A DNA stretch of 64,000 bases from an uncultured Pelagibacteraceae bacterium (GTDB lineage Bacteria > Pseudomonadota > Alphaproteobacteria > Pelagibacterales > Pelagibacteraceae), in assembly GCA_902634935.1 (NCBI GenBank), contig CACPMF010000004.1:31838-95837 (forward strand), in the 5' to 3' direction. Below are positions 7,160 through 10,717 of the stretch, in pieces. The translations under genes and the position numbers were made by a program. The notes under the pieces were generated by a model. It saw nothing but the letters and a program-made list of their open reading frames with translations, did not search any database and was not told the DNA's origin. Numbering within the stretch: the stretch's first letter is position 1; every line of letters begins with the position of its first letter.

Positions 7160-7701
7160 ACTTGTAACTCCTTTATCAATTTTTTAATTAATTCAATACT
7201 TTGACCATTCTTAATAAGTGGATAAATTGATTTTGCCTTTTCTAAGTCAACTAAAGCTTTTTCATACTCCTTTAATGACAAATAAATCTGAGCTCTTCCT
7301 GATAATGCTCCGAAATGCCTTGGCTCTAAACTTAAAACCTGTTCAATATCTTTTAAAGAAGCATCATAATTTCCCATTAAAAATAGCAAAGTGGCTCTTT
7401 TATTCCAAGCTTCAGCCCAATTGGGATCTTCAGTTATTACATCGCTAAACAATTTTAGTGCTAGACGGTATTGATTGTTGTTCATTGAAAATGTGCCATT
7501 TTCAAGCTTGTCAGTTAAATATTTACTTTTTGGGTGAGTAACCCAATCCCTCCAAATATTTTTTTCAATATACTCTGCAGCATAAATATTTTCTGCCTTT
7601 TGCAACTCATCGAAAAGATTATTTAAATCTTTAGCATTTAACTTAAAAAAAGATATTGAGAGAATTAAAATAACAAAAGAAATTTTTTTAATCACTAACA
7701 T
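7156..7701 (-). CDS. Secreted TPR-repeat protein
   Basis: About 181 residues with a signal peptide (MLVIKKISFVILILSISFF...NA) followed by two or three tetratricopeptide repeats, for example PNWAEAWNKRATLLFLMGNY and PRHFGALSGRAQIYLSLKEY. TPRs mediate protein contacts, here presumably in the periplasm. The ORF track places the start at 7737; I prefer the ATG at 7701, where the signal peptide begins. It overlaps the end of the upstream regulator by 14 bp, so it is probably cotranscribed with it. Specific role unknown. Confidence 0.75.
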   Translation of the reverse strand: MLVIKKISFVILILSISFFKLNAKDLNNLFDELQKAENIYAAEYIEKNIWRDWVTHPKSKYLTDKLENGTFSMNNNQYRLALKLFSDVITEDPNWAEAWNKRATLLFLMGNYDASLKDIEQVLSLEPRHFGALSGRAQIYLSLKEYEKALVDLEKAKSIYPLIKNGQSIELIKKLIKELQV

Positions 7702-9112
7702 AAACTGAAATACCTCTCGAATTAATATCAACATCAAATTTTTTATGAAGTGGTGGGAAAGCTCTCTGAGAACAATCTAAACGATCGCAAGTTCTACATG
7801 ATACACCAACAGGAATTTCAGATTTTTTATCATTTAAATCTAAATTTTCTGTATAAACAAAATCTTTAGCGTATTTAGCTTGGCATCCTAAACCAATAGA
7901 AAGCATACTTTTCTTTTGACCATATCTTCCAATTCCTTTTTCTACAGTTCGGGCAATACAAACATATTTTTCTCCATTTGTCATTTTGCTAACGGCAGCC
8001 TGAATTACGCCAGGCCTTGAAAAAGCTGAATAAACATTCCAACGTGGACAAGCACCACCATATCTTGGTATCTCAATTCCAGATAATGAAAATCTTTTCG
8101 ATATATTGCCAGCAACATCTACCCTTAAAAAGTGAAATGGAACCCCAGGTTTTTTTGGATCATTTAAACAAGTTACTCTATGAGTAACTTGCTCAAATGA
8201 AGTTGCAAATGTATTTTGTAAAAGTTCCAAATCGTATTTAAGTTTTTTACACTCTGAGTGAAATAAATTATAAGGCATTAAAATTGCTGCCCCGCAATAG
8301 TTTAATAGAGCAACTTTTGATAATTTTTTTGACTCCTCGGATGGAAAATTAAATGTCCCTAAATATTCGTTAATTAAATCCTCTGCACCCTCTTGTGCAA
8401 TTTGTGCAGCCGCATGAAGCTTCTTTGTTTCCAAAGATAAGTAATCCGACAAGTAAAGCTCTTTACTTTTTTTATTATAGATTTTGGAAAATGGTTTACC
8501 CTCCTCTGGAATAATGTCCTTAACTGTTATTCCATATTCTGTTTTCAAAAATTCACATAGGGCAACATATCTCGTTCTATTATTTTGTTTTATTTTTTCA
8601 AATATTTCGTTAGCGAAATTTTCAAGTTTAGAAAAATAGTTTTTATTTTCTTGAAGAAAATCAGAGATTACTTCGCCAGGAAATGAATTTTTTCTACTGT
8701 CAACTATTTTCCCTGAAAGTTTCTCTATTTTGTTTACAAGTTCGTGATCTTTTTTTTTTAAAATATCTCCAAGTCTAATCAAAGCCTTTCCTATTTTAGG
8801 ATTACTGCTAGCTAAATCTTTTACTTCTGGACCTAATATATCTAAATCTTCAAAAAGTTGATCGTCTAGTAACTCTGATATTGTATTAATCATGTTAACA
8901 TCAGATTTAGAGGTAAGATCTGAGATATTAATTTTTAATTCATCACAAATTTTAATTAATAAATCACCGTCAACTTTTCTCTTTCCACCTTCAATTAATG
9001 CTAGGTAGCTAGGTGATATTTCCAATTGGCTAGCAAGCTTATTAGCTTGCATCCCAATTTGTCTTCTAAAAGCCTTAATTTTAGGACCTAATTTAAAATC
9101 TAATTGACTCAT
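7688..9112 (-). CDS. RamB-like XRE regulator with DUF2083 (short-chain acyl-CoA/acetate control)
   Basis: 474 residues, a normal length for the RamB/ScfR-type family. Residues about 8-65 form an XRE helix-turn-helix (ASQLEISPSYLALIEGGKR). The middle contains a degenerate IrrE/ImmA-like zinc peptidase segment (HAAAQIAQEGAEDL, lacking an intact HExxH), and the C-terminus is DUF2083-like with a Cys cluster (SCRTCDRLDCSQRAFPP). In actinobacteria RamB controls isocitrate lyase and other acetate genes. Here the gene diverges from isocitrate lyase across a spacer full of TTTGTAAAT half-sites, one array ending just before its own ATG, so control of aceA and of itself is a well-supported inference. 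Confidence 0.88.
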   Translation of the reverse strand: MSQLDFKLGPKIKAFRRQIGMQANKLASQLEISPSYLALIEGGKRKVDGDLLIKICDELKINISDLTSKSDVNMINTISELLDDQLFEDLDILGPEVKDLASSNPKIGKALIRLGDILKKKDHELVNKIEKLSGKIVDSRKNSFPGEVISDFLQENKNYFSKLENFANEIFEKIKQNNRTRYVALCEFLKTEYGITVKDIIPEEGKPFSKIYNKKSKELYLSDYLSLETKKLHAAAQIAQEGAEDLINEYLGTFNFPSEESKKLSKVALLNYCGAAILMPYNLFHSECKKLKYDLELLQNTFATSFEQVTHRVTCLNDPKKPGVPFHFLRVDVAGNISKRFSLSGIEIPRYGGACPRWNVYSAFSRPGVIQAAVSKMTNGEKYVCIARTVEKGIGRYGQKKSMLSIGLGCQAKYAKDFVYTENLDLNDKKSEIPVGVSCRTCDRLDCSQRAFPPLHKKFDVDINSRGISVYVSD

Positions 9113-9118
9113 TTACTA

Positions 9119-9149
9119 TTTGTAAATTTTGTAAATTTATATTTACAAA
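9119..9149. promoter_or_regulatory. Operator array 1 (TTTGTAAAT repeats) before the RamB-like gene
   Basis: Two direct copies of TTTGTAAA spaced 9 bp apart are followed by an inverted copy, so 9128-9149 is an inverted repeat with perfect 9-bp arms (TTTGTAAAT / ATTTACAAA) and a 4-bp spacer. It ends 7 bp from the regulator's start codon. Position and symmetry suggest autoregulation by the RamB-like protein, whose actinobacterial relatives bind a similar short motif. Confidence 0.65.
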
Positions 9150-9181
9150 AAATTTCCACTATTTACTTTCAATATAGCGTT

Positions 9182-9222
9182 TTTTGTAGAATTTGTAAAT
9201 ATTGTAAATTATAAGATTTACA
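9182..9222. promoter_or_regulatory. Operator array 2 (TTTGTAAAT repeats) before the small ORF and aceA
   Basis: A second array of the same half-site: TTTTGTAGA, TTTGTAAAT and ATTGTAAAT follow each other at exact 9-bp spacing, then an inverted ATTTACA whose last base is the A of the ATG of the 54-codon ORF. The arrangement mirrors array 1. One further TTTACAAA lies at 9425-9432, just before aceA. Binding here would be expected to control the small ORF and isocitrate lyase. Confidence 0.62.
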
Positions 9223-9386
9223 TGGATAAAGATAAAATCAAAAACAACGAAATTGATGCGCAAATTATCAGTAAGGAAGATTTAGACCATCACAATAGTC
9301 GAGGAGTTTATATGAGAGACGATCATTGTGACTGGGGTTCAAGTGGATTGGATCAGTTAATAAATCCTATTAACGAAACTAACTAG
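9222..9386 (+). CDS. Unannotated 54-residue acidic protein upstream of isocitrate lyase
   Basis: A short ORF absent from the track: it starts MDKDKIKNNEIDAQ and ends DQLINPINETN. It is hydrophilic, with a His/Asp/Cys/Trp-rich middle (DHHNSRGVYMRDDHCDWG), no signal peptide and no membrane segment. The ATG directly follows operator array 2 without a Shine-Dalgarno, so it may be translated from a leaderless or nearly leaderless transcript. Aceous composition unlike random AT-rich DNA (Trp, His, Cys, Gly codons) argues for real coding. No family is recognised. A regulatory leader peptide or a small protein of the glyoxylate shunt are both possible. Confidence 0.5.
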   Translation: MDKDKIKNNEIDAQIISKEDLDHHNSRGVYMRDDHCDWGSSGLDQLINPINETN

Positions 9387-9442
9387 ATCTCTTTACTTTT
9401 ATTCAATTTCAAAAATAAACAACTTTTACAAAACACGAAAAT

Positions 9443-10717
9443 ATGAGCGCAGAAAATGTTTCTTACGATTTAAAAAGATTTGCGGGTATTAAAAGAGATT
9501 ATACTTCAGAAGAAGTAGAAAGATTAAAAGGCTCAATAAAAATTGAATATTCAGTATGTAAAAATCAGTCACAAAAACTCTGGAAATTACTTAATTCAGA
9601 AAAATATGTAAATACGTTAGGCTCTCTGTCAGGAAACCAGGCTGTTCAACATGCAAAGGCAGGATTAAAAGCAATATATTTAAGTGGATGGCAGGTTGCA
9701 GCAGACGCAAACAGCGCAGGAGAAATGTATCCTGATCAATCACTTTATCCCTATGATAGTGCCCCAAAACTTGTTGAGGCAATGAATAATTCATTGATCA
9801 GAGCTGATCAAATTCAGCATATGGAGTTATCAGACGGTGATATGAAAAAAGAAAATTCTATTGATTATATGTTGCCAATTATAGCTGATGGAGAAGCGGG
9901 ATTTGGTGGTCCTTTAAATGTTTTTGAACTAACAAAAAAATTCATTAAAGCAGGTGCAGCAGGTGTTCATTTTGAAGACCAGCTAGCTAGTGAAAAAAAA
10001 TGTGGCCATATGGGTGGTAAAGTTTTAGTCCCAACAGGCACAATGGTTAGAAACCTGAAGGCAGCGAGGTTGGCAGCTGATATTGCTGATGTTCCTCTCA
10101 TTATACTTGCAAGGACAGATGCCAATGCTGCTAAATTAATTACAAATGATTTCGATGAAAATGATAAACCATTTTTAACCGGCGAGAGATCCCCAGAAGG
10201 TTTTTATTATGTAAAAGATGGCATTGAGCAAGCTATTTCTAGAGGACTAGCTTATGCACCATATGCAGATCTTATTTGGTGTGAAACAGCAACTCCAAAT
10301 TTAAAAGAAGCAAAAAAATTTGCTGATGCTATTCATGAAAAATTTCCAGGTAAATTATTAGCCTACAACTGCTCACCATCATTCAATTGGAAAAAACATT
10401 TGTCAGATGATGAAATAGCAACTTTCCAACAAGAAATTGGAAAAATGGGATATAAATTTCAATTCATTACTTTAGCAGGTTTCCATACCCAGAATATTGC
10501 AATATTTGAGCTTGCAGAAAAATATAAATCAAAAGGGATGAGTGCTTATTCTGAAATTCAAGAACACGAGTTTGCCAGAGAAAAAGATGGTTATACTAGT
10601 GTTAAACATCAAAGAGAAGTAGGGACATCATATTTTGATGCAGTATCTAACACAATAAGTTCTGGAAAAAGCTCAACAACTGCAATGGAAGGATCAACAG
10701 AATCTGAGCAGTTTTAG
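9443..10717 (+). CDS. aceA: Isocitrate lyase
   Basis: A 424-residue isocitrate lyase, which splits isocitrate into succinate and glyoxylate, the first step of the glyoxylate shunt. The active-site signature KKCGHMGGK lies at about residues 185-193, with [16 protein letters not shown] and LARTDANAA around the Mg and substrate site, and [11 protein letters not shown] in the C-terminal half. Length matches the short bacterial form. No clear Shine-Dalgarno precedes the ATG. Malate synthase is not in this window. The divergent RamB-like gene and repeat arrays imply induction by carbon source. Confidence 0.97.

Follow-up and report, generated by a model that had tools for sequence, protein, structure and literature searches.

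The spacer between a gene for an ScfR-family regulator and the divergent isocitrate lyase gene aceA carries a series of conserved short boxes which, judged by sequence comparison, very likely form the operator cluster of this adjacent regulator; all of these features lie in the 64,000-nucleotide stretch of DNA analysed here (the window). We base this assignment on the family of the protein, the restriction of the exact box pair to this locus, a footprint-like conservation in 117 spacers, a class-wide enrichment of the boxes upstream of ScfR genes and the precedent of Mycobacterium tuberculosis PrpR. The first-pass annotation had proposed that the arrays are operators of a RamB-like protein, and the computational evidence, including the conservation of the boxes together with the regulator, supports this proposal. 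Judged from its nearest named relatives, the source organism falls within the Pelagibacteraceae (SAR11). Few transcription circuits are known in SAR11, a group of abundant ocean bacteria, and our search of the literature on the control of SAR11 isocitrate lyase found nothing direct. The boxes would map in detail the operators through which the glyoxylate shunt of these bacteria is controlled. The 9-bp spacing is already known from Mycobacterium, and the new details are the microprotein, the leaderless prediction and the double-HTH relatives. The features are as follows:

7688 to 9112, minus strand: ScfR-family regulator (RamB/PrpR-like), 474 aa, with HTH_3, IrrE-like and ScfRs C-terminal domains
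9119 to 9136, plus strand: box pair D1-D2, TTTGTAAATTTTGTAAAT, with a period of 9 bp, immediately before the ATG of the regulator
9142 to 9149 (9-mer 9141 to 9149), minus strand: inverted box I1 (TTTACAAA on the plus strand), 0-1 mismatch in 115/117 genus spacers
9161 to 9169, minus strand: site of inverted box I2, which reads ATTTACAAG in the majority of relatives and is degenerate here (ATTTACTTT)
9183 to 9191, plus strand: degenerate box D0, TTTGTAGAA, variable among relatives
9192 to 9209, plus strand: box pair D3-D4, TTTGTAAATATTGTAAAT, adjoining the -10 element on its upstream side and 73 bp from D1-D2
9210 to 9215, plus strand: predicted -10 element TATAAG (TATAAA, TATAAG or TATATA in nearly all relatives)
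9222 to 9386, plus strand: conserved microprotein gene, 54 aa, predicted to be leaderless and to head the aceA unit
9425 to 9432, minus strand: TTTACAAA before aceA, unconserved, probably chance
9443 to 10717, plus strand: aceA, isocitrate lyase, 424 aa (PRK15063, 729 bits, cut-off 562)

The regulator clearly belongs to the ScfR family. It matched the Pfam ScfRs domain PF09856 with E=3.3e-59 and 199.7 bits (cut-off 24), as well as the IrrE-like domain PF06114 (38.1 bits, cut-off 22) and HTH_3 (33 bits, cut-off 23), and its nearest solved structures are those of M. tuberculosis PrpR (6cz6 at E=8e-66, PrpR structures at about 1e-65). The 474-aa protein lacks an HExxH motif and keeps the [4Fe4S] ligand cysteines, namely C439, C442 and C447 (C439RTCDRLDC447, a C-x2-C-x4-C arrangement) together with C355 of the GAF region (GGACPRWN). 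The NCBIfam RamB equivalog model NF038139 gave 361.6 bits, under its curated cut-off of 700, so that "RamB-like" is a correct description and strict RamB equivalence is not supported, a point that we counted against the operator reading.

Direct reading of the sequence located exact copies of TTTGTAAAT on the plus strand at 9119-9127, 9128-9136 and 9192-9200, and on the minus strand at 9141-9149. With ATTGTAAAT at 9201-9209 and the degenerate TTTGTAGAA at 9183-9191, the 9-bp period is exact, and the description of direct half-site arrays at this spacing stood when the coordinates were re-read. The further claim that each array is closed by an inverted half-site holds for array 1 (9141-9149), whereas in array 2 the inverted copy is only partial (ATTTACAT, 9216-9223) and runs into the ATG. 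The arrangement corresponds to the PrpR-type layout of two TTTGCAAA-like 8-mers one base apart, reading TTTGTAAA-T-TTTGTAAA at 9119-9135 and TTTGTAAA-T-ATTGTAAA at 9192-9208, although one core base of the window boxes differs from TTTGCAAA, being T for C.

Single copies of TTTGTAAAT are ordinary in the window (8 found versus 5.6 expected), and the signal is therefore carried by pairing and position. An order-3 Markov model predicts 0.0016 occurrences of TTGTAAATNTTGTAAAT in 64 kb and 0.026 in the genome, and two exact copies are present in the spacer; a third exact copy in the assembly sits inside a coding frame. The full pattern, TTTGTAAATNTTGTAAAT, occurs exactly only at the two spacer sites in the assembly (1.06 Mb, with a completeness of about 79%). 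The first-pass annotation had weighed its reading against the possibility that the repeats are widespread in unrelated AT-rich spacers, and a genome-wide search revealed no such spread, the exact pair occurring twice at the locus and otherwise only in that coding frame. We also considered a wider regulon in this genome and rejected it, since the remaining near matches examined all lie within coding sequence.

To assess conservation, we read 153 loci holding both ScfR and aceA, which yielded 117 distinct spacers from the same genus, and found the boxes to be near-invariant. D1 is exact in 100 of the 117 genus spacers, D2 in 115 and D3 in 107, and with at most one mismatch I1 is present in 115, I2 in 104 and D4 in 111. 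In an alignment of 24 representatives the boxes stay at fixed positions while the intervening DNA diverges, and the ScfR-microprotein-aceA order is kept in every locus holding both genes. I2 is lost in the window's own lineage (ATTTACTTT), which we likewise counted against the operator reading. The half-site reported before aceA is indeed present at 9425-9432 (TTTACAAA), but a functional role is doubtful: only 3/117 spacers have an exact box in the 40 nt preceding aceA, and this copy is therefore probably chance. Other genera of the family also possess the box cluster, with the first pair reversed (TTTACAAAATTTACAAA), which suggests that pair orientation may matter little, as would be the case for a near-palindromic operator. 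The D1-D3 distance is 73 bp (75 spacers) or 74 bp (42 spacers) within the genus and mostly 81 or 89 bp in the other genera; given this variation, a fixed looping geometry is not indicated, and the idea of DNA looping with fixed phase between the pairs was dropped.

The boxes are not peculiar to SAR11. In the regions upstream of ScfR genes from 27 other alphaproteobacterial genera (5.9 kb), TTTACAAA/TTTGTAAA was seen 21 times versus 0.41 expected, an enrichment of about 50-fold, while the coding DNA of these loci (28 kb) contained no copy. Pairs of TTTACA on one strand at a distance of 8-10 bp were seen 11 times in these upstream regions versus 0.007 expected. The upstream regions concerned (L182-L209) have a GC content of 35-61%. 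On this enrichment, the SAR11 box looks like a class-wide ScfR box and not a product of low GC. The tandem arrangement of TTTACAAA boxes at 8-10 bp could be used to predict regulons across the class. The window shares with these regions both the TTTACAAA/TTTGTAAA boxes and their tandem spacing, yet the ScfR genes with boxes in the 27-genus sample do not all adjoin aceA, whereas the window cluster adjoins both aceA and a microprotein gene, clear relatives of which were not found outside SAR11.

These observations bear on two other explanations of the boxes. That they are chance repeats in an AT-rich spacer, as the commonness of single TTTGTAAAT copies might suggest, has a negligible probability, considering that exact pairs are expected about 0.03 times per genome and that near-invariance over 117 distinct spacers contradicts it. 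It is also very improbable that another regulator, such as a global protein with a preference for AT-rich TTTGTAAA-like DNA, acts at these sites and that ScfR is a bystander. The AT-richness of the DNA is in keeping with such a protein, and binding of ScfR to the boxes is proposed from sequence; the boxes, however, accompany ScfR genes in the 27 genera, over the range of upstream GC given above, the other genome matches examined lie in coding frames, and the boxes fit the known box of the family (TTTGCAAA) but for one base.

With the boxes read as ScfR operators, each 9-bp pair, i.e., two TTTGTAAA boxes separated by a single base, would constitute one 17-bp operator, probably bound by a dimer. 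Operators of 17 bp are also used by lambda-type repressors, so that no special account of the phasing is required. Nor did the earlier view of the 9-bp spacing as unusual and oddly phased hold up, as the PrpR footprint has the same period (PMC3420887; PMC6765138): M. tuberculosis PrpR protects 25 bp containing TTTGCAAA and TTTGCgAA one nucleotide apart (PMC3420887), and the same 17 bp are found upstream of icl1 (PMC6765138). Like the PrpR operator (prpD-prpR, icl1), the window cluster has two 8-bp boxes one base apart, lies between an ScfR gene and its divergent, here putative, target, and is also associated with isocitrate lyase. It differs in its core, TTTGTAAA as opposed to the palindromic TTTGCAAA, in having several boxes as well as inverted ones, and in that its operator role is predicted. 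The comparison links the ScfR box of alphaproteobacteria (TTTACAAA/TTTGTAAA) with the TTTGCAAA of actinobacteria. Like PrpR, the regulator may be tetrameric, and its C-terminal domain, with the [4Fe4S] ligands, would most likely sense short-chain acyl-CoA (PMC6765138), thereby matching entry into the glyoxylate shunt to acyl-CoA supply. D1-D2, I1 and I2, placed at the regulator's own start, would mediate autoregulation.

Two characterized RamB proteins allow further comparison. The first-pass annotation had referred to RamB control of isocitrate lyase in actinobacteria; such control is known there, but the statement is too narrow, because the alphaproteobacterial RamB of Paracoccus also controls the glyoxylate cycle (PMC10370305). 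In the latter case, RamB activates the glyoxylate operon through two boxes 18 bp apart (PMC10370305). The window resembles Paracoccus denitrificans (class 2) in harboring an alphaproteobacterial ScfR gene that lies upstream of glyoxylate-cycle genes and is oriented opposite to them (PMC10370305), and departs from its 18-bp spacer upstream of malate synthase-icl in having 9-bp pairs and an aceA gene placed behind a microprotein gene. Corynebacterium glutamicum RamB mostly represses, via AA/GAACTTTGCAAA, and shares with the window regulator its family, the box core and aceA as target, the last being predicted for the window (PMC4448153). It has a wide regulon with single 13-bp motifs, whereas the window site pair is restricted to a single locus.

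D3-D4 lies immediately next to the -10 element of a putative promoter from which the microprotein gene and aceA would be transcribed as an operon. The microprotein ATG lies exactly 6 nt after the -10 box in 115/117 spacers, so that the expected transcript start falls on the ATG and a leaderless message is predicted. On reading the sequence, no good -35 hexamer was found at the usual spacing from TATAAG, and a scan for consensus sigma-70 promoters gave minus-strand matches only, at shuffle level. In one sister genus (L123, L124), the microprotein gene is preceded by a Shine-Dalgarno-like GGGAGG/AGGAG, and a second small ORF lies between it and aceA.

The microprotein ORF is present in 153/153 ScfR-aceA loci, and its core, GIYMRDDHCDWGSSGM, becomes G(L/V)YV(N/R)(D/E)DDQDWGSAGM in sister genera. 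It belongs to no Pfam or NCBIfam family, its predicted structure was of low confidence (pLDDT 56) and uninformative, and among 385 genomes of the class no clear relative was found outside SAR11, the single marginal match lying inside a long ORF. A phage origin was considered and set aside, since neither phage records nor viral contigs contained a relative. The role of this conserved, family-less microprotein, encoded ahead of the isocitrate lyase gene, is amenable to testing. We entertain, as an unlikely proposal, that it is a SAR11-specific partner, induced along with isocitrate lyase from a leaderless promoter under ScfR control and acting on the enzyme or on the acyl-CoA/iron-sulfur sensing of the regulator; if true, the microprotein would make entry into the shunt responsive to both carbon and iron.

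The position of the small ORF between promoter and aceA is also what would be expected of an RNA or translational leader (attenuator) for aceA, with conservation residing partly in the RNA. There is little likelihood of this, given a dN/dS of 0.11 for the core (NG86, 1,033 pairs), indicating strong purifying selection with third positions free, the retention of the protein sequence across SAR11 genera and the lack of any Rfam match above threshold, a result that also led us to reject an RNA element. A glycine riboswitch was likewise not found in the genome assembly, which is incomplete. The sign of control is more evenly balanced. We lean slightly to activation because of the Paracoccus precedent and the lack of a usable -35, but a pure repressor is a serious contender, if somewhat less than an even chance. 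In that case D3-D4 and D1-D2 would cover both promoters and the regulator would be released upon acyl-CoA binding or loss of the Fe-S cluster, e.g., under iron limitation. D3-D4, which extends over roughly -11 to -28 in the predicted promoter, is placed where a repressor would block polymerase, and the RamB proteins of C. glutamicum and M. tuberculosis repress aceA/icl1 (PMC4448153; PMC6765138). Moreover, aceA and the regulator rise together in iron-limited Ca. P. ubique (PMC2864753). Conversely, the experimentally studied alphaproteobacterial RamB, that of Paracoccus, is an activator (PMC10370305), and the absence of a good -35 fits an activator-dependent promoter.

In the Ca. P. ubique experiment, aceA and the neighboring transcription regulator were up about 1.6-fold under iron limitation, with P values of 0.09 and 0.05, respectively (PMC2864753), a shared rise that we also counted in favor of the operator reading. 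The accompanying table lists aceA as SAR11_1240 and the transcription regulator as SAR11_1242 (PMC2864753); SAR11_1241 is presumably the microprotein gene. The iron response may be due to read-through from the sfu iron-uptake operon, which is adjacent in that strain.

In 21 of the 153 loci, some of them repeat fetches of one locus, the regulator carries a second HTH in front and reaches about 562 aa (among them L019, L026, L028, L029, L031, L032, L058, L075, L085, L087, L092, L097, L102, L110, L114, L119, L168). The extra HTH domains form one clade (support 0.985), yet they are scattered on a quick tree of the regulator, a pattern that suggests one gain followed by several losses or transfers. 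These double-HTH loci show no accompanying change in the operator cluster.
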